From positions 992,001 through 1,056,000 of the forward strand of contig NZ_JAAABI010000001.1 in assembly GCF_009903685.1 (NCBI RefSeq): 64,000 bases of DNA, in the 5' to 3' direction. This document shows positions 295 to 8,224 of this stretch, one piece after another. The DNA comes from Flagellimonas ochracea (lineage in GTDB: Bacteria; Bacteroidota; Bacteroidia; Flavobacteriales; Flavobacteriaceae). The position numbers were made by a program, and so were the translations under genes. The number at the start of each line of letters is the position of its first letter. Positions within the stretch are counted from its first letter, which is position 1. The notes below the pieces were generated by a model that saw only the letters and a list, made by a program, of their open reading frames with translations, was not told the origin of the DNA and did not search any database.

Positions 295-1665
295 ATGTTA
301 TATTCCGATACCATAGTAGCTTTAGCTACCCCTGCAGGGACAGGGGCCATTGCCGTGATTAGGATTTCCGGTCCAGAAGCGATTAGCCTTTCAGATTCCA
401 TATTTGCCTCTGTGAAAAAGAAAAAACTGAAGCAACAAAAAACCCATACCATTCATTTAGGGCATATAGTGGACAACGGCAAAGTTTTGGACGAGGCCTT
501 GGTTTCCATTTTTAAAGGTCCCACTTCCTACACTGGGGAGGATGTAGTAGAAATTTCCTGTCACGGCTCTCCTTACGTTCAACAGCAAATAGTGAATTTG
601 CTGCTACGAAAAGGATGCCGGACTGCCTCTGCAGGGGAGTTTACTTTAAGGGCCTTTTTAAATGGAAAAATGGACCTTAGCCAAGCAGAAGCAGTTGCTG
701 ATTTAATTGCCAGTGACAGTGCCGCTGCCCACGATATAGCCTTACAGCAAATGCGTGGTGGTTTCAGCCATGAGATCCAAAAACTTAGGGAAGAGCTTCT
801 GAATTTTGCCTCCTTAATCGAACTGGAACTGGATTTTTCCCAAGAAGACGTGGAGTTTGCAGACCGAACGCAGTTTAATGCACTTTTGAATAAAATCAGC
901 GAGGTGTTGAAAAAATTGATAGACTCCTTTGCCCTTGGGAACGTCATAAAAAAAGGTATCCCCGTTGCCATCGTAGGACAGCCCAATGTGGGCAAATCCA
1001 CATTGCTGAATGCTTTGCTGAACGAAGAAAGAGCCATCGTGAGTGATATCGCGGGAACCACCCGGGATACGGTGGAAGACCAAATCAGTTTGAAAGGCAT
1101 CAATTTCAGATTCATTGATACTGCTGGAATCCGGGAAACCCAAGATGTAGTGGAAAAAATAGGTATTGAACGCACTTTTGATAAAATCGACAAAGCACGG
1201 CTCATTGTTTTTCTTTTTGATAAGGTGGATTTTGACCGTTCTGAGTTGCAGCGAATCCAACAACGCTACCCCAACAAACAAATATTGCCCGTTTGCAATA
1301 AAATGGATTTGTTGACCCCAGACCAAGTGGAAGCCCTGAAGAAAGAAATTCCGAATGTACTTTTTTTATCTGCCAAACATCGAAAAGGAATAGATGTATT
1401 AGAGGAAAAACTCTCGGGCTTGGTCGATTCAGGGGCATTAAGTGGGGATAGAACTATAATATCCAACAGTCGGCACTACGATGCCCTTTTAAAGGCTCTG
1501 GAGGAAATTCAAAAAGTAAAAGAGGGGATGGAAATGGGTCTATCCAGCGATCTTATGGCCATTGATATCCGGCAAGCGCTTTTTCATTTGGGTGAAATTA
1601 CAGGACAGGTTACCACGGATGATCTACTGGGAAATATATTTTCCAATTTTTGCATCGGAAAATAA
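295..1665 (+). CDS. mnmE: tRNA uridine-5-carboxymethylaminomethyl(34) synthesis GTPase MnmE
   Basis: MnmE works with MnmG to build the cmnm5 group on wobble uridine 34 of certain tRNAs in the cytoplasm. The 456-residue protein has the usual family length. An N-terminal tetrahydrofolate-binding domain (about 1-120, including GEDVVEISCHGSP near 81-93) is followed by a helical domain with an inserted G domain. The G domain has G1 GQPNVGKS at 228-235, the TTRD switch near 255, DTAG at 275-278 and NKMD near 336. The C-terminus is the diagnostic FCIGK with its conserved cysteine. The start is the ATG that gives MLYSDTIVALATP, as in homologues. A TAnnTTTG box (TAATTTTG, 283-290) lies only 4 bases upstream of that ATG, which would mean a leaderless transcript if it is the real -7 element. 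Assignment is secure. Confidence 0.97.
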   Translation: MLYSDTIVALATPAGTGAIAVIRISGPEAISLSDSIFASVKKKKLKQQKTHTIHLGHIVDNGKVLDEALVSIFKGPTSYTGEDVVEISCHGSPYVQQQIVNLLLRKGCRTASAGEFTLRAFLNGKMDLSQAEAVADLIASDSAAAHDIALQQMRGGFSHEIQKLREELLNFASLIELELDFSQEDVEFADRTQFNALLNKISEVLKKLIDSFALGNVIKKGIPVAIVGQPNVGKSTLLNALLNEERAIVSDIAGTTRDTVEDQISLKGINFRFIDTAGIRETQDVVEKIGIERTFDKIDKARLIVFLFDKVDFDRSELQRIQQRYPNKQILPVCNKMDLLTPDQVEALKKEIPNVLFLSAKHRKGIDVLEEKLSGLVDSGALSGDRTIISNSRHYDALLKALEEIQKVKEGMEMGLSSDLMAIDIRQALFHLGEITGQVTTDDLLGNIFSNFCIGK

Positions 1666-1932
1666 TCAAGTTTGTTTATTTAATTGGTGCGTGTTGATTT
1701 GGTTTCATTTAATGTGACGGTCAAGAACTTTTTACACAAACAAAGAATATTGACTATCTTTAATAGGATTAAGGTTATTCCAAAATCATAGGTTTTACAA
1801 AACCAAAATCTGCCCAATAAAAAGGAACAACGCTTAACTCTATCTTGCCTTTAAAAAATGAAAGTTCGTTGTTCTTTATTGCGCTATTTCAGGGTTTACA
1901 GTAGCAATTTTCCAGAAGTCCAAATTGAGAAT

Positions 1933-2493
1933 ATGAAATTGTACATTAAATATATGGTTAGTCAACGTTGCAAAATATTGGTAGGGCAAGAACTACGAAG
2001 ATTAGGCGTGGATTATGCCGACTTAGATCTTGGAATGGTCAAAATTAAGGGAAGTATTACTCAAGAAAAACGAATTCTGTTCCAGCAAAATCTTCTTAAA
2101 TCGGGACTTGAATTGCTAGACGACACCAAGAGTATCTTAATTGATCGGATAAAGACTGCCATCATAGAGATGATTCATCATACTGACGAAATTCCGAAAA
2201 CCAACTATTCTGGATATTTAAGCGAAAAACTGGGGTATGACTACACCTATTTGTCGAACACATTTTCTGAAGTTAAAGGAATCACCATACAGCATTATAT
2301 CATCAAACATAAAATTGAAAAGGTAAAAGAATTGTTGCTCTATGATGAGCTCAACCTCACTGAAATTGGGCATAAACTTCACTATAGTAGTCCATCCCAT
2401 TTGTCAAATCAATTTAAAAAAGTCACTGGCCTCACACCTTCGTTTTTCAAAAAAATGAAGAAAAAAAGACAGCAAAATTTGGAAAATCTGTGA
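1933..2493 (+). CDS. AraC-type helix-turn-helix transcriptional regulator
   Basis: The reading frame is open from 1858, but I place the start at the ATG at 1933 (MKLYIKYMVSQRCK), which is where homologues that I recall begin. The upstream 25 residues look non-coding. The C-terminal half is an AraC-family DNA-binding domain with two helix-turn-helix units: 'YLSNTFSEVKGITIQHYIIKH' and then 'LTEIGHKLHYSSPSHLSNQF'. It ends KKVTGLTPSFFKKMKKK. The N-terminal part (about 90 residues) is a short conserved module (VGQELRRLGVDY) found in many Bacteroidota AraC proteins; its ligand is unknown to me. It stands alone between mnmE and a group of small ORFs, so its target is not shown by context. Confidence 0.85.
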   Translation: MKLYIKYMVSQRCKILVGQELRRLGVDYADLDLGMVKIKGSITQEKRILFQQNLLKSGLELLDDTKSILIDRIKTAIIEMIHHTDEIPKTNYSGYLSEKLGYDYTYLSNTFSEVKGITIQHYIIKHKIEKVKELLLYDELNLTEIGHKLHYSSPSHLSNQFKKVTGLTPSFFKKMKKKRQQNLENL

Positions 2494-2598
2494 TATATGT
2501 AAGGTTTACACATATATGTATAGCAAAATTCCTATGGTTCTGTCGCACCTTTACTATCAAATGTGATTTTAATCAATAGCATTCAAAACACTGAACAT

Positions 2599-2754
2599 AT
2601 GGACTTATTTGAAAAGAACAATTTGGTTTACGGTATTCTAAAAAAAATAAGAGATGCATTTAGGCCAATATTTGATAGTGGCAACCCACGAACCATAAGG
2701 GAAAACGAATTACAGAAAAACCTAAAACCCAATTTGATCAAAATCAAGAAATGA
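2599..2754 (+). CDS. Small hypothetical protein, 51 aa
   Basis: The frame is open from 2563, and the most protein-like start is the ATG at 2599, giving MDLFEKNNLVYGILKKIRDA and ending in a lysine-rich tail (NLIKIKK). The first half reads as an amphipathic helix. I recognise no family. The AraC-type gene lies 105 bases upstream and a hairpin terminator at 2855-2888 follows on the same strand, which is consistent with a short transcription unit. No clear ribosome binding site is visible, so it may be a chance ORF. Confidence 0.3.
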   Translation: MDLFEKNNLVYGILKKIRDAFRPIFDSGNPRTIRENELQKNLKPNLIKIKK

Positions 2755-2854
2755 CTTTAGTCAATTGCAAATACATGGCCTGTACCATACTAGGGGAAAG
2801 AGAATTTGATTTCGTTTATTGATAAGTGCTTTTAGATTATTTAAAGGCCCAAGA

Positions 2855-2888
2855 AAGAGCAGGAACTAAAAAACACTGCTCTTTTTTC
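2855..2888 (+). terminator. Rho-independent terminator
   Basis: The stem AGAGCAG (2856-2862) pairs with CTGCTCT (2876-2882) around a 13-base loop and runs into a T tract on the plus strand. It would end transcription from the small ORF or AraC-type gene upstream. Confidence 0.6.
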
Positions 2889-2976
2889 GTGAAAAGCCTA
2901 ATCTATTGGGCTTCTTATAACCAAAGTCTTTTCTAAACAAATTTATGGAGGTAGATGGTGCGATAAAATATATGCC

Positions 2977-3045
2977 ATGAGGAAATGTGCTTACTGTTTA
3001 GTCCTATTGCTAATAATGTTGGTGCTCGCTGTTTCGCTTCCATAA
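2977..3045 (+). CDS. Very short hydrophobic peptide, 22 aa
   Basis: An ATG at 2977 opens a 22-codon frame that begins MRKCAYC and continues as an almost purely aliphatic stretch (LVLLLIMLVLAVSL) before TAA. It resembles a single-span membrane peptide or a signal-peptide remnant. It ends 20 bases before the start of the lysine-rich 38-residue protein, so it may be co-transcribed or a leader. No homologue is known to me; expression needs ribosome profiling or a conservation test. Confidence 0.3.
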   Translation: MRKCAYCLVLLLIMLVLAVSLP

Positions 3046-3065
3046 ATCAATTAAAAATTAACATA

Positions 3066-3182
3066 ATGTCGAGAGAAAAAGAAGGTAAACAAAAATCTGG
3101 GAAAACAGCTCCATCGAGCACTCCTAAAGAGAAAAAGGCCGCTAAAAGGGCAAAACGGAATGCCAAGAACAGAGCGGAATAG
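3066..3182 (+). CDS. Small lysine-rich protein, 38 aa
   Basis: The frame is open from 2985, but the plausible start is the ATG at 3066. It gives MSREKEGKQKSGK, followed by a strongly basic tail of KEKKAAKRAKRNAK type. Similar tiny Lys/Ala-rich proteins with an MSREK start occur in Flavobacteriaceae as far as I recall. Their role is unknown; the composition suggests nucleic acid or ribosome binding, but that is inference. It sits 38 bases before the cupin gene and may be the first gene of that operon. Confidence 0.5.
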   Translation: MSREKEGKQKSGKTAPSSTPKEKKAAKRAKRNAKNRAE

Positions 3183-3220
3183 AGGGAAAAGGAAAACATT
3201 ATAAGCCTTATTGCTAAACT

Positions 3221-3553
3221 GTGGAAAATGGCGAATTTGAAGAATCCAAGAAGTTTAACTTGGTAGATGCACTAGAGTATATTTCTAATACTATAGTGGT
3301 AAAAAATATAATGGTCGAAAACAACTGTGTCATACAGGCATTTGTATTTGATTATGGCAAAGTGCAATCTTATGAGAAATCTCCTTTTCCGCGATTTATT
3401 TACATAATCGAAGGTAAAGCAGAAGTGGTAATCAATAACAACTCCACCTTCATGCTTAAGGGTGATTCCATACTTATACCTCGACATTCTAAAAGTTCAA
3501 TTGAAGCGAACCATAAGTTCAAAATGATATGCACAACCATAAAAAGTGAATGA
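3221..3553 (+). CDS. Cupin-domain protein
   Basis: A 110-residue single cupin barrel. The segment FIYIIEGKAEVVINNNSTFMLKGDSILIPRHSKSSIEA has the cupin 2 pattern of a central glycine-rich turn, 'KGD', then 'P.H'. Cupin motif 1 lacks the usual HxH metal ligands, so it may be a small-molecule-binding rather than a catalytic cupin. The start appears to be GTG at 3221, because the nearby ATG at 3228 is out of frame. Its stop overlaps a possible ATG of the next gene (ATGA at 3550-3553), which points to a shared mRNA with the DUF1611/racemase/VanX genes. Confidence 0.7.
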   Translation: MENGEFEESKKFNLVDALEYISNTIVVKNIMVENNCVIQAFVFDYGKVQSYEKSPFPRFIYIIEGKAEVVINNNSTFMLKGDSILIPRHSKSSIEANHKFKMICTTIKSE

Positions 3554-3579
3554 ACCATTTTTTTAACAAAAAACACCTT

Positions 3580-3786
3580 ATGGCAACGAGCAAAATGGAG
3601 AATAGATTCAAAAAAGGAGATGTCGTCTGTGCCAAAGTGAGGCCTTCGGTATCGCTTGTTGTTCGATTGTATGCACGCAGGGTTTATTACTGTACAACCC
3701 AAAATAATCCTTCCGAAAAGGAATTGGTCTATTTTGATAGGGAATTGAAATCTTACGATGCAATCCCACTTGTTATGAAAACTTAA
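3580..3786 (+). CDS. Small conserved hypothetical protein (68-78 aa)
   Basis: The frame is open from an ATG at 3550 that overlaps the cupin stop codon, but the ATG at 3580 gives MATSKMENRFKKGDVV, a more natural beginning. The protein is a compact beta-rich sequence (RFKKGDVVCAKVRPSVSLVV, then RRVYYCTTQNNPSEKELVYF) resembling an SH3-like small barrel. I remember similar small proteins in other Bacteroidota, without a function. It lies 11 bases before the DUF1611 gene, so it is very likely co-transcribed. Confidence 0.6.
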   Translation: MATSKMENRFKKGDVVCAKVRPSVSLVVRLYARRVYYCTTQNNPSEKELVYFDRELKSYDAIPLVMKT

Positions 3787-3797
3787 GACAACAAATT

Positions 3798-4877
3798 ATG
3801 AAGGCGAATACATTGGTTTATTGTGAGAACGAATTTGGGAATGTGGACGGCAAAGTGGCCAATGGACTTATTCGGCAATCGGAAAGATACACTATCGTTG
3901 GAATTATAGATAGTTCCAAGACGGGACAAGATGCAGGCGAACATTTAGATGGTGTGAGAAATGGAATCCCCATTTTTGAAAGTATCGCGCATGCTTTGGA
4001 AGAATTAGGCGCTGTTCCCGAATATTTTATCTATGGTATCGCCCCGCTCGATTCGTTTTTAAGTAATGAACAAAAAGAAGTCATTTTTACAGCAATAAAA
4101 AGTGGCATGAATATCATCAATGGTCTCCCCGAGTTTTTTAACAACAACATTCAATATGTAAATATGGCGCTCAAATATGGTGTCACCATAGAAGACGTCA
4201 GGAAACCTCCAGCACGTGAAAATCTCCATAATTTCTCGGGACGCATCCAAAATGTAAGGGTTCCGGTAATTGCGGTAATGGGTACCGACTGCGCCGTTGG
4301 CAAAAGAACTACGGCATTGGTATTGGTAGAAGCACTACGGAATGAAGGTCTGAACGCTGTCTTTGTGACCACCGGTCAGACAGGCTTGCTCCAAGGCTCG
4401 AAATATGGAGTGGCCATAGATGTGTTAACATCAGGGTTTGCCACTGGGGAAGTTGAAAACGCCGTCCTGAATGCCTATGAGCAAGAACAACCAGATATCA
4501 TTGTTGTTGAAGGCCAAGGCGCTTTAAGCCACCCTGCATTTACTTCTTCAAGCGCCATTCTACGCGGGGCAATGCCAGATGCAATCATTATACAGCATCC
4601 TCCAAAACGAAAAAATTATTGTGACTACCCCAAGATTCCGATGTTGGATTTGGTAGACGAGATTGAAATGATAGAGATATTCTCCAAATCAACGGTCATT
4701 GCGATTACCATTAACCATGAAAACATGACCCATGTTGAAGTGAACCATGTAATAGGCCAATATGAATCAGAATATAATCTACCCGTTACCGATGTCCTAA
4801 TACATGGATGCGATAAATTGGTAAAAGAGTTGATCAAAACCTTTCCAGAGCTAAAAAGAGAGTCGGTGTTGGTTTGA
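3798..4877 (+). CDS. DUF1611 family P-loop enzyme (DgcN-like)
   Basis: The protein has an N-terminal Rossmann-type half (about 1-150) and a C-terminal P-loop half. The nucleotide-binding loop is MGTDCAVGKRTTA near 161-172, and 'VVEGQGALSHPAF' follows as the second conserved DUF1611 signature. One DUF1611 member, DgcN, has been described as a D-glutamate N-acetyltransferase acting with an N-acetyl-D-glutamate racemase in marine bacteria; other members are uncharacterised. Here the next gene, overlapping by 4 bases, is a PLP racemase of another fold, and a VanX-type dipeptidase follows. A role in D-amino-acid handling is therefore likely, but the substrate is inference. Length (359 aa) matches the family. 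Confidence 0.85.
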   Translation: MKANTLVYCENEFGNVDGKVANGLIRQSERYTIVGIIDSSKTGQDAGEHLDGVRNGIPIFESIAHALEELGAVPEYFIYGIAPLDSFLSNEQKEVIFTAIKSGMNIINGLPEFFNNNIQYVNMALKYGVTIEDVRKPPARENLHNFSGRIQNVRVPVIAVMGTDCAVGKRTTALVLVEALRNEGLNAVFVTTGQTGLLQGSKYGVAIDVLTSGFATGEVENAVLNAYEQEQPDIIVVEGQGALSHPAFTSSSAILRGAMPDAIIIQHPPKRKNYCDYPKIPMLDLVDEIEMIEIFSKSTVIAITINHENMTHVEVNHVIGQYESEYNLPVTDVLIHGCDKLVKELIKTFPELKRESVLV

Positions 4878-5959
4878 ATCTTCCTAGGATTGATATTGAT
4901 TTGGAAAAGATTGCCCACAACGTACAACAATTAAAAAAACTGTATGGTTCTAAGGGCATCGATATAATTGGGGTTACCAAAGTGGTTGGGGGCAATCCTA
5001 TAATCGCTGATATCTTGGTCAAAAATGGCATTGAAATTCTTGCGGACTCTAGAATATCGAATATTATAAAAATGCGCAAAGCGGGGATACGGGCACAATA
5101 CATGTTGCTCAGAACACCGGCGCTCAGCCAAGTGCAAGAAGTGGTTATTCACACACACATAAGTCTAAATTCTGAGTTGGCAGTTCTAAAAAAACTTTCG
5201 GAATACGCCTCAAGAAACCATATCATACATAAGGTTATCTTGATGGTGGAACTTGGTGACTTACGAGAAGGAATCATGCCATCTGAAATGAATGCAATTG
5301 TAAAAGAGGTGCTAAACATGGAAGGTCTGGCCTTAATGGGTATAGGAACAAATCTCGCATGTTTTGGTGGAATAAGTCCCGATGCGGACAAAATGAACGA
5401 GTTGTCTTCAATAGCAATTCGTTTGGAAGAAAAATTCAAAATCACGCTAGCTATGGTGTCCGGTGGAAACTCTGCAAATTACAACTGGTTCACATCTTCA
5501 AAAGATGTGGGCAGAATAAACAGCTTCCGATTGGGCGAATCAATTTTTTTAGGTAAGGAAGCACTTTGCAGAAAAACCATTCCGGGACTTTTTACAGATA
5601 TTTTCACGTTAATGGCCGAGGTCATCGAAGCAAAACGAAAACCATCACAACCCTATGGGGAAGTATATCAAAATGCAAGCGGTGATATTCCTAGTTCTAA
5701 GAATAAAGGCTTGATGGATAGGGCGATTCTTGCGATTGGAACCCAGGACGTTGTTATTTCAGGAATTACGCCAAAACAAAATGTGGCCATTTTAGGTGCG
5801 AGTAGTGACCATATCGTAGTGGACAACACAAAGGCGAAATTAAAATTGGGGGATGCCGTGGCGTTCAATCTAAATTATAGCGCATTATCAAGAGCTTTAA
5901 ATGCTCAACATATCTCAAAAAATAGCATCAATTTTCATGAATGTGCAAGCATACTGTAA
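4874..5959 (+). CDS. Alanine/ornithine racemase-family PLP enzyme
   Basis: This 361-residue protein is a fold-type III PLP enzyme of the alanine/ornithine racemase-like (Orr/YhfX) group. It begins LPRIDIDLEKIAHNV, and the PLP lysine is expected at K36 in IIGVTKVVGG. Further signatures are 'VELGDLREGI', 'GTNLACFGGISP' and 'SGGNSANY', which help bind the cofactor phosphate. The start is TTG at 4874, overlapping the DUF1611 stop (TTGA), so translation is coupled. Substrate cannot be read from the sequence: alanine, ornithine, glutamate or an N-acyl amino acid are all possible. Context with DUF1611 and a D,D-dipeptidase favours a D-amino acid. Confidence 0.85.
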   Translation: MNLPRIDIDLEKIAHNVQQLKKLYGSKGIDIIGVTKVVGGNPIIADILVKNGIEILADSRISNIIKMRKAGIRAQYMLLRTPALSQVQEVVIHTHISLNSELAVLKKLSEYASRNHIIHKVILMVELGDLREGIMPSEMNAIVKEVLNMEGLALMGIGTNLACFGGISPDADKMNELSSIAIRLEEKFKITLAMVSGGNSANYNWFTSSKDVGRINSFRLGESIFLGKEALCRKTIPGLFTDIFTLMAEVIEAKRKPSQPYGEVYQNASGDIPSSKNKGLMDRAILAIGTQDVVISGITPKQNVAILGASSDHIVVDNTKAKLKLGDAVAFNLNYSALSRALNAQHISKNSINFHECASIL

Positions 5960-6611
5960 GGCGGTCGAAGCAAAAGACCTTCAGCATAAACTATTAGCTC
6001 CCTCCATTTGGATACAAGAAAATCATTCACCATTGGTTAGTTTGATGGACACGAATTTCAATTTAATTTTTGAACCGTCAATTTTGGAAGATTATCAATA
6101 CTTGGTCCGAGAAGATATTATCCAAAAAATTGGTCGGATCAGCAAACATTTGGATAGGCAAAATAAAGTTTTGATTGTTCGTTCTGCTTGGAGATCTTCT
6201 GAGCATCAAAAACTTTTATGGGATTCCAAATTTGCGTGCTATCAGAAAAAACATCCCGAAAAATCAAACATTGAAATCAAAGAAACCATAAGCTACTTTA
6301 TCGCTCCTCCAGCCATGTCCATGCATGCTACGGGCGGAGCAGTGGATGCTTTGATTTATGACAAACTTGAAAATCGTGTGATGGATTTTGGAACTAACAA
6401 GGGTTTTGAAATCGACCTGTCAAAAAAATGTTATCCCTATTATCCAGATATTGGTATTGAAGCGAAAAAAAATAGGGCACTGCTGATTGGTCTATTTGAA
6501 GACGAAGATTTTGTATGTGATTTGAAGGAGTATTGGCATTTTGATTACGGCAATGTAGCTTGGGCCATAGAAAAAGAAAAGGAATATGCCATTTATGGGC
6601 CCATTACTTAG
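5937..6611 (+). CDS. D-Ala-D-Ala dipeptidase, VanX-like (peptidase M15D)
   Basis: The M15 zinc-peptidase core is complete. SMHATGGAVD supplies the first zinc histidine and aspartate, and EYWHFDYG supplies the catalytic glutamate and last histidine. The arginine-rich segment RSAWRSSEHQ corresponds to the transition-state arginine region of VanX. There is no signal peptide, so it should act in the cytoplasm on D,D-dipeptides, as VanX/DdpX do. The frame is open from an ATG at 5901 (59-base overlap with the racemase), but the ATG at 5937 leaves a 23-base overlap and is preferred. It is last in the operon. VanX can give glycopeptide resistance, yet no vanA/vanH ligase genes are nearby, so recycling or catabolism of D-Ala-D-Ala is more likely. 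Confidence 0.85.
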   Translation: MNVQAYCKAVEAKDLQHKLLAPSIWIQENHSPLVSLMDTNFNLIFEPSILEDYQYLVREDIIQKIGRISKHLDRQNKVLIVRSAWRSSEHQKLLWDSKFACYQKKHPEKSNIEIKETISYFIAPPAMSMHATGGAVDALIYDKLENRVMDFGTNKGFEIDLSKKCYPYYPDIGIEAKKNRALLIGLFEDEDFVCDLKEYWHFDYGNVAWAIEKEKEYAIYGPIT

Positions 6612-6639
6612 ATGTGCCGACCCACTGAATAAGAAGTAA

Positions 6640-6668
6640 GGGTTTGATTACTATCTAAGAAACCCTTG
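6640..6668 (+). other. Hairpin after the VanX-like gene
   Basis: AAGGGTTT and AAACCCTT form a perfect 8-base-pair stem around a 13-14-base loop, about 30 bases after the VanX-like stop codon. There is no T tract, so it is not a classical terminator. It could stabilise the 3' end of the operon mRNA. Confidence 0.35.
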
Positions 6669-7375: not shown

Positions 7376-8224
7376 ATGGATAATGACCCTATGGGTGAGC
7401 TGAAAAACGTATTGAAAAAAGGGCGCGGGAGAAGTCTGATCATTATTGCCACATTGGTGGTATTACTGTTTGCTTTTAAACCATGGGTCCAAATCGGTGC
7501 AGGTGAGCGAGGGGTTGTCCAGAATTTCGGAGCCGTACAGGACAACGTGTTAAATGAAGGAATCCATTTCAAAATACCAATTGTGCAAACCGTCATCTTA
7601 ATGGACGTAAAAATTCAAAAAGCGATGACAGATGCCGCATCCTCATCCTCTGACCTGCAGGATGTGGATTTATCCGTGGCCCTTAATTATCACATCATAC
7701 CCGATAAAGCAAATTTGGTTTATCAAACTATAGGTGTGGAATTCAAGGAGCGTATTATTGACCCTGCCATTCAAGAAGTCATGAAAGCCGTTTCGGCCAG
7801 GTATACCGCCGAGGAATTGATTACTAAGAGGCCCGCTGTTAGTACCGAAATGCAAGAAGCACTAACTTCAAGGTTGCTAGCTTCGAATATATCCGTTGAC
7901 GCTTTTTCGATTATCTCATTTAGTTTTTCACAAACATTTACCGATGCCATTGAGGCTAAGCAAACCGCGGAGCAAAATGCATTGAAGGCAAAAAGGGACC
8001 TGGACCGGATTAGGGTAGAAGCCGAACAGACCATTGCTGCAGCAACAGCCGAGGCCGAAGCACTACGGTTACAAAAAATGAACATTTCACCTGATCTTAT
8101 AGAGCTAAGAAAGATAGAAGCAAACCTTAAGGCCATAGAAAAATGGAACGGGATTCTACCTGAGGTTACGGGTGCAGGCGCGATTCCTTTTATTGGAGTA
8201 GGTGATGCAATTAAAAACAAATAA
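7376..8224 (+). CDS. Prohibitin/SPFH-domain membrane protein
   Basis: A 282-residue prohibitin-family protein. A short cytosolic N-terminus is followed by one transmembrane helix near 20-36 (LIIIATLVVLLFAF). The SPFH domain then begins with IGAGERGVVQNFGAV and includes GIHFKIPIVQTVILMDVKIQK, the prohibitin pattern. A long charged coiled coil with Ala/Glu repeats (about 190-245: EAKQTAEQNALKAKRDLDRI) supports oligomer rings. The C-terminus, GILPEVTGAGAIPFIGV, is also typical. Such proteins form membrane scaffolds and often affect AAA protease activity. The next ORF overlaps its end by about 20 bases, suggesting co-expression. Confidence 0.9.
   Translation: MDNDPMGELKNVLKKGRGRSLIIIATLVVLLFAFKPWVQIGAGERGVVQNFGAVQDNVLNEGIHFKIPIVQTVILMDVKIQKAMTDAASSSSDLQDVDLSVALNYHIIPDKANLVYQTIGVEFKERIIDPAIQEVMKAVSARYTAEELITKRPAVSTEMQEALTSRLLASNISVDAFSIISFSFSQTFTDAIEAKQTAEQNALKAKRDLDRIRVEAEQTIAAATAEAEALRLQKMNISPDLIELRKIEANLKAIEKWNGILPEVTGAGAIPFIGVGDAIKNK

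Follow-up and report, generated by a model that had tools for sequence, protein, structure and literature searches.

A DUF1611 protein paired with an ornithine-racemase-like enzyme in Flagellimonas ochracea and its conservation across phyla

What is the function of a DUF1611 protein whose gene runs into that of a pyridoxal 5'-phosphate (PLP)-dependent racemase? The question is raised by a 64,000-nucleotide stretch of the Flagellimonas ochracea genome (assembly GCF_009903685.1, contig NZ_JAAABI010000001.1, positions 992,001 to 1,056,000), called the window here, in whose coordinates the positions of its features are given. The individually placed genes and motifs of the window all lie on the forward (+) strand. 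Open reading frames (ORFs) and Pfam/NCBIfam matches define a tight same-strand run of genes for a small cupin, a 68-residue protein, the DUF1611 protein, an Orr-like PLP enzyme and a VanX-type M15 peptidase. The original prediction, made from the sequence alone, gave the same gene identities, coordinates, tight packing and TTGA overlap, all of which the ORF and family analysis confirmed, and read the run as a possible pathway from D-Ala-D-Ala or another D-peptide to an L-amino acid. To our knowledge, DUF1611, a domain of unknown function in Pfam, has a single published role, and this has an enolase-type partner: DgcN reportedly acetylates the alpha-amino group of D-glutamate, which lets an enolase-type enzyme racemise it. 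The DgcN-DgcA route is named in PMC10845958, and PMC12363236 describes dgcN as a key gene of a racemisation pathway.

The DUF1611 and racemase genes form the conserved core

The DUF1611 gene (3798..4877) is followed directly by the racemase gene (4874..5959), whose TTG start lies within the DUF1611 stop (TTGA, 4874-4877). A scan of genome contigs with the racemase alignment gave at least 577 relatives, of which the best 80 were kept, so that the counts describe close relatives only. In 77 of these 80 loci, DUF1611 was the next gene upstream of the racemase on the same strand, and the gap between the two was negative in 50 of the 77, exactly -4 in 31 and at most 30 bases in 69; since genes were called as the longest ORFs, these gaps are approximate. 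The 74 pair loci with a phylum label cover 16 phyla (Bacteroidota 22, Cyanobacteriota 15, Bacillota 14, Pseudomonadota 5, and others), where the labels of metagenome-assembled genomes (MAGs) may contain binning errors. Two archaeal MAGs are among the pair loci, and Heimdallarchaeota, which has only an exception locus, was therefore uncounted. All counts refer to the named set, in which L116 is the contig of L082 and L103 that of L066. Outside Bacteroidota, the pair occurs mostly without further operon genes. Because DUF1611 stands upstream of the racemase in 77 of 80 loci versus 25 of 80 with an M15 gene, the core is a two-gene DUF1611-racemase unit and not a five-gene set, and the M15 peptidase is an accessory to it. 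The dipeptidase had been predicted to complete the set, a role that fails in the 55 of 80 loci where M15 was not seen (2 of these end less than 700 bases from the racemase).

The two proteins have also diverged together. Pairwise distances of DUF1611 and racemase correlate with r 0.906 over 74 pairs, a value matched in 0 of 2000 permutations; three DUF1611 rows shorter than 320 residues were omitted from this test. Set against 11 Bacteroidota proteins of other classes, the DUF1611 proteins linked to a racemase group together in a single clade (support 93). For the trees, fused proteins were trimmed to 365-400 residues, and the nearest named relatives were Flavobacteriaceae. The neighbourhood check that had been suggested was run, and the 77 of 80 loci and the co-divergence place the arrangement well beyond this strain, as anticipated.

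A DUF1611 match was present in 47 of the 249 same-family genomes, and the matches fell into about three identity classes. With proteins at least 65% identical to that of the window (n=10, own genome included), the racemase was adjacent in 10 of 10 cases and M15 present in 9 of 10, the tenth locus, L010, being without M15 but meeting a contig end. Gene association exceeds chance in this same-family sample, as it does in the wider set of 80. The lower classes (about 44% and about 32% identity) lack the pair arrangement: in the 11 of 38 matches fetched in full, an MR_MLE epimerase homologue occurred in 10 loci and a threonine-synthase-like PLP enzyme in 6, with Pfam checked on one of each neighbour type. 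No DUF1611 match was found in G229, the sole genome of the same genus in the sample, and the operon is thus patchy. In locus L131, the M15 gene is followed by another DUF1611 gene, 57% identical to that of the window. In L071 (and, by size and position, also in L076), a second-class DUF1611 gene stands with genes for a threonine-synthase-like enzyme, a 507-residue protein with only a Pfam match below cut-off, a creatininase and an enolase-type epimerase.

The pair also occurs on plasmids of Vibrio and roseobacters, where DUF1611 adjoins the racemase in 7 of the 18 records with a racemase match; six of these plasmids, with both genes annotated, repeat the 4-base overlap. Three roseobacter plasmids (L222 9191-10700, L223 7226-8719 and L224 7188-8762) share a row of three hypothetical genes upstream of the pair, homologous and in one common order, with 48-66% identity between plasmids; one of the three matches an EGF-type Pfam model, perhaps spuriously. 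In the Vibrio plasmids L220, L226 and L228, the racemase gene overlaps at its end with a gspS2 pilotin-like gene.

Identity of the two enzymes

The DUF1611 protein matches Pfam DUF1611 at 221.9 bits (cut-off 25) and DUF1611_N at 69.0, and by Pfam and the structure model it consists of a Rossmann-like N domain and a P-loop C domain in a DgcN-like fold. The model (predicted local distance difference test 92.8) matches 2obn (Z 41.5), 2g0t (37.4) and DgcN 7xrj (32.4) over nearly its full length, with a root-mean-square deviation from 7xrj of 4.3 over 324 residues. The P-loop GTDCAVGKRTT (residues 162-172; 4281..4313) aligns with those of 2g0t, 2obn and 7xrj, and the P-loop core, TGQ and EGQG motifs line up with DgcN; the alignment for the structure model comprised the window protein and 49 of 74 DUF1611 proteins. 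The best NCBIfam model is DgcN (NF041892), at 157 bits versus a cut-off of 480. A DgcA-type epimerase was not found in the genome, whose two MR_MLE matches are a MenC-like protein (130.5 bits, cut-off 130.55) and enolase. With the score under the cut-off and no DgcA found, a plain DgcN was rejected. The predicted replacement of the enolase-type epimerase by a PLP racemase of fold type III stands; the partner matches Ala_racemase_N at 87.9 bits (cut-off 24.1).

This racemase had been called Alr-like, but its scores place it with the ornithine racemases and not with the alanine racemases: its best NCBIfam model is the ornithine racemase Orr (NF040742; 373.3 bits), versus 46.7 bits with the alanine racemase model (cut-off 168). 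The Orr score is below the cut-off of 480, which the OraE-linked L083 exceeds at 505.7; the window racemase is 39% identical to OraE-linked Orr. Alanine racemases are the best matches of its structure model (94.2; Z 29.6 to 4y2w), for which the alignment comprised the window protein and 52 of 67 eligible racemases. The predicted PLP-binding lysine, Lys36 (codon 4979..4981), is K in 43 of 43 DUF1611-linked rows and H313 is kept in 42 of 43. Residues K36, R80, D129, R131, Q291, D292, D312, H313 and Y335 match the OraE-linked ornithine racemases (12 rows, L218 being placed among them by its reactivating-protein gene only), and the 16 rows of GNAT-linked Orr-like racemases deviate at R80, N199, Q291 and H313. 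A profile alignment to Alr for the second catalytic base was poor (probability 2) and was left unused. Residues 202, 203 and 205 differ between the pair clade and Orr, and no oraE or ortB was present among the identified neighbours of the window racemase. A plain ornithine racemase was rejected on the lack of oraE among identified neighbours and the score under the curated Orr value.

Two relatives point to a substrate class. A Shinella plasmid racemase, 38.5% identical to that of the window, is fused to an arginase-family domain (L230 7001-8788; Pfam) within an arginine-type catabolic cluster with 5-guanidino-2-oxopentanoate decarboxylase, D-amino-acid dehydrogenase and agmatinase. A Roseateles racemase (L231 7001-8788), about 38% identical to that of the window and, with 91% identity to the Shinella protein over its full length, a fusion of the same kind, stands with 5-guanidino-2-oxopentanoate decarboxylase and D-amino-acid dehydrogenase. 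Since the Orr-type columns and these arginine-type clusters favour it, a cationic amino acid is our best guess for the substrate of the pair, as judged from sequence comparison.

A proposed route and its competitors

The pair probably makes or handles a D-amino acid. Gene order, conservation, co-divergence, fusions and the intactness of the catalytic motifs are observed; from them and from known chemistry we infer a substrate class, an acyl donor, a direction and a physiological role, and the resulting scheme is tentative, held with clearly less than even confidence: from an L-amino acid, probably cationic, to the D-amino acid and on to an N-acyl-D-amino acid, perhaps a stress metabolite. The pair would be a translationally coupled two-enzyme unit whose members meet at the free D-amino acid. 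The Orr-like racemase would convert an L-amino acid, most likely of the ornithine, arginine or lysine type, into its D form, and the DUF1611 protein would then acylate the amino group, most likely with acetyl as DgcN reportedly does to D-glutamate, pulling the reversible racemisation towards the N-acyl-D-amino acid. Where a cytosolic M15D peptidase accompanies the pair, as in Bacteroidota and some further lineages and at times within one protein with the racemase, it may feed the D-amino-acid pool from D-peptides or hydrolyse the product, which may serve stress tolerance.

Several arguments favour this order. PLP racemases are expected to require the alpha-amino group in free form and not to accept alpha-N-acyl amino acids, so that racemisation would have to come first if DUF1611 acylates that group, and no DgcA was found in the genome. 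Moreover, the partners of related racemases (DUF1611, GNAT and Ddl-like proteins) belong to amino-group-acylating families, GNAT and Ddl-like ATP-grasp enzymes being known to acylate amino groups. In the more distant Orr-like racemase loci (L083-L101), a GNAT gene was upstream in 16 of 19 and adjacent in 14, with Pfam checked on two; these 19 and one pair locus were those fetched in full out of 62 matched genomes. Several of the L084-L101 loci (Bacteroidota) also have SSF symporter, M20 and Alr genes. In L111 and L132, a D-Ala-D-Ala-ligase-like ATP-grasp gene occupies the position of DUF1611, which was probably replaced there, since their racemases sit among the DUF1611-linked ones in the tree. 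The L132 run (1562-6660) consists of mutually overlapping genes for an octopine-dehydrogenase-like protein, a 662-residue protein, the Ddl-like ATP-grasp protein and the Orr-like racemase, and looks biosynthetic. No Pfam family was matched by the 662-residue gene of L132 or by a 169-residue gene of L146. On the racemase tree (42 of the 80 named loci and 24 other rows), the DUF1611-linked rows need four state changes, three of them forced by well-supported branches, and so are not one clade.

A number of observations weigh against the proposed scheme. W205 is present in 43 of 43 pair-clade rows (and in both ATP-grasp-linked ones), a position at which L, M or I is found in the OraE-linked rows, and the Orr-type columns are also largely present in 19 Orr-like rows of unknown context, so that they mark a subfamily and are no proof of substrate. 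D-threonine aldolases match the racemase model nearly as well as alanine racemases (Z 28.2 vs 29.6), hence the fold alone does not settle the reaction. The DUF1611 protein is distant from DgcN (157 of 480 bits; 24-26% identity by structure), and its C domain resembles the ATP-using P-loop enzymes dethiobiotin synthetase (BioD) and CTP synthetase, as well as cyclic 2,3-diphosphoglycerate synthetase (Z about 13-14); the acyl donor is therefore a guess. Of the 18 plasmid records with a racemase match, only 7 have DUF1611, and L151, from a MAG as are L111 and L132, has an amidohydrolase gene in the position of DUF1611. When the 30 loci with the highest Orr scores were taken from 398 Bacillota genomes, none had DUF1611 within about 1.5 kb, and 10 had an oraE fragment. 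The DUF1611 link thus belongs to this racemase subfamily and is lost outside its close relatives. Finally, fusions of M15 with the racemase, and the peptide-type ABC transporter genes seen by eye beside the Bacilli loci L143 and L166 (opposite strand), fit the breakdown of D-peptides.

The last points lead to the strongest competitor, the salvage of D-peptides and D-amino acids, which we hold only slightly less likely than the proposed scheme. Here M15 would free D-amino acids from cytosolic D-dipeptides of cell-wall turnover, the racemase would turn them into L forms for catabolism, and DUF1611 would N-acylate a part of them for detoxification or another branch. The window peptidase (5937..6611) belongs to the M15D (VanX/DdpX-like) zinc enzymes; its ORF reaches back to 5901, the start at 5937 agreeing with the closest homologues (MNVQAYC...). 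It matches Peptidase_M15 at 39.9 bits (cut-off 27), with PRK10178 as the best NCBIfam model (42 of 176 bits), and by eye has no signal peptide. The zinc motif SxHxxGxAxD was read from the sequence at 6318..6347, and in the 25 loci with M15, the SxHxxGxAxD and ExWH motifs are intact in 25 of 25 homologues, likewise by eye without signal peptide. The homologues comprise 15 separate genes and 10 fused to the racemase C-terminus, and on a tree of all 80 loci and 3 more the fusion state changed four times by parsimony, two changes being forced by well-supported branches. Where both occur, racemase and peptidase probably share an intermediate. The transporter genes and the amidohydrolase upstream in L151 also suit salvage, as does the catabolic nature of the DgcN-DgcA route (PMC10845958 and PMC12363236). 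Against it, the racemase is without M15 in 55 of 80 loci, mostly in a two-gene unit with DUF1611, the near-invariant partner that salvage makes redundant, and the genome has stronger matches elsewhere to M15 (133 bits) and Ala_racemase_N (193 bits). The missing M15 and these stronger matches led us to reject a simple D-Ala-D-Ala pathway as the core, and the predicted conversion of D-Ala-D-Ala to an L-amino acid also leaves DUF1611 without a role.

A second alternative retains the acylate-then-racemise order of DgcN-DgcA: DUF1611 would acylate the distal amine of a diamino acid, on which the racemase would then act. The upstream place of DUF1611 in the 77 pairs and the kinship of the racemase to diamino-acid enzymes are in its favour, yet DgcN reportedly acylates an alpha-amino group and the conserved acidic D129 may, judging from the residue columns, bind a charged side chain, and we regard side-chain acylation as unlikely. 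Least probable of all is DUF1611 as an ATP-dependent ligase or kinase, and not an acetyltransferase, that with the racemase would make a D-amino-acid amide or dipeptide as Ddl does: the Walker-type P-loop, the BioD-, CTP-synthetase- and cyclic-2,3-diphosphoglycerate-synthetase-like C domain and the Ddl-like genes replacing DUF1611 in L111 and L132 speak for it, and the acetyltransferase name of the sole characterised relative known to us (7xrj title; NF041892) speaks against it.

As to the role of the product in the preferred scheme, SPFH genes (HflK/HflC or Band_7) were found near 18 of 88 loci versus 0 of 30 controls (Fisher p 0.006) and chaperonin/Hsp20 genes near 10 of 88 versus 0 of 30 (p 0.06), the 88 loci including three without DUF1611 and L227, where the racemase is unannotated. 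A stress role is weakened by the wider list, from which any stress gene occurred near 25 of 88 loci versus 4 of 30 (p 0.14), and by counts that are uncorrected for descent; as the loci are related by descent and all controls are Bacteroidota, the stress link is a lead only. According to PMC1224877 and PMC12776343, ablA-ablB is a salt-induced operon of an isomerase and an acetyltransferase that makes an osmolyte, and according to PMC4685198 N-alpha-acetyl-lysine is a probable thermolyte. By these precedents, N-acyl amino acids of such a kind can be stress solutes. That the pair is a widespread, partly mobile cassette whose N-acyl-D-amino acid, such as N-acetyl-D-ornithine or its arginine or lysine counterpart, represents a new class of stress solutes or signals is an extension we consider doubtful.

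Neighbouring genes and comparison with known systems

Upstream of the pair, the 68-residue ORF (3580..3786) matches no family; in 16 of 80 loci a homologue lies no more than 3.5 kb from the racemase. The cupin gene (3221..3553, GTG start) scores 25.1 bits with Cupin_2, slightly below the 27.2 cut-off, with a homologue within the same distance in 15 of 80 loci. A Lys/Arg-rich ORF of 38 residues (3066..3182), found by tblastn in Flavobacteriaceae relatives, in L131 and weakly in L159, is possibly the leader gene of the operon. Farther upstream lies an AraC-family regulator (1858..2493; HTH_18 63.9 bits), which likewise has a homologue no more than 3.5 kb from the racemase in 16 of 80 loci. Beside the operon, a Band_7/SPFH protein (7376..8224) represents the recurrent SPFH neighbour counted above and is not claimed as part of the unit; after it come genes for a cold-shock protein, a desaturase and a sigma factor. 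A promoter and terminator scan gave sites not above those of shuffled sequences (15 vs 16.4 and 3 vs 4.1, respectively). A defence system was rejected, as none of the five window proteins matched a PADLOC model at E 0.01. A long gene run at 12316-48777 contains genes that by eye resemble those of polysaccharide export, sugar-nucleotide metabolism and glycosyltransferases.

With a DUF1611 clade tied to a PLP racemase across many phyla and on plasmids, a possible second DUF1611 function becomes directly testable, and two small genes suffice for it. Were the product an N-acyl-D-amino acid, D-amino-acid metabolism would gain a new route and perhaps a new stress metabolite as well. Both families have known members; their partnership is apparently undescribed in the open PMC literature, where no paper on it was found, most subscription papers being outside this coverage. 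In that literature DUF1611 is mentioned in two papers, with titles on Dickeya, and in none alongside racemase.

Overall, the closest known system is DgcN-DgcA (NF041892, NF042940), in which a DUF1611 gene of the same fold (7xrj) also lies directly upstream of an amino-acid racemase gene, overlapping it in Pseudoalteromonas. The window differs in the PLP fold-III partner in place of the enolase-type one, in the DgcN score of 157 versus 480 bits and in having no DgcA found in the genome. Orr (NF040742) shares the subfamily, 39% identity to one OraE-linked member and most of the catalytic columns, which other Orr-like rows also have, and is set apart by the 373 versus 480 bits of the window racemase, by W205 in place of L/M/I and by the lack of oraE and ortB among the identified neighbours. 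The M15 gene has the domain and zinc motifs of the VanX/DdpX M15D enzymes and, by eye, no signal peptide, like them; unlike VanX, it scores 21.7 of 320 bits on that model, and the majority of pair loci showed no M15. VanC/VanG-type cassettes consist of the racemase VanT, a ligase and VanXY or VanX; the window operon likewise combines a racemase with an M15 peptidase, but no ligase is among its genes and DUF1611 stands in its place. With the abl operon (lysine 2,3-aminomutase and beta-lysine acetyltransferase) we know of no homologous parts, and the likeness is one of analogy only, in the two-gene logic of an isomerase and an N-acetyltransferase. Should the doubtful stress-solute or signal role nevertheless apply, the pair would parallel the abl osmolyte operon with a set of unrelated enzymes.

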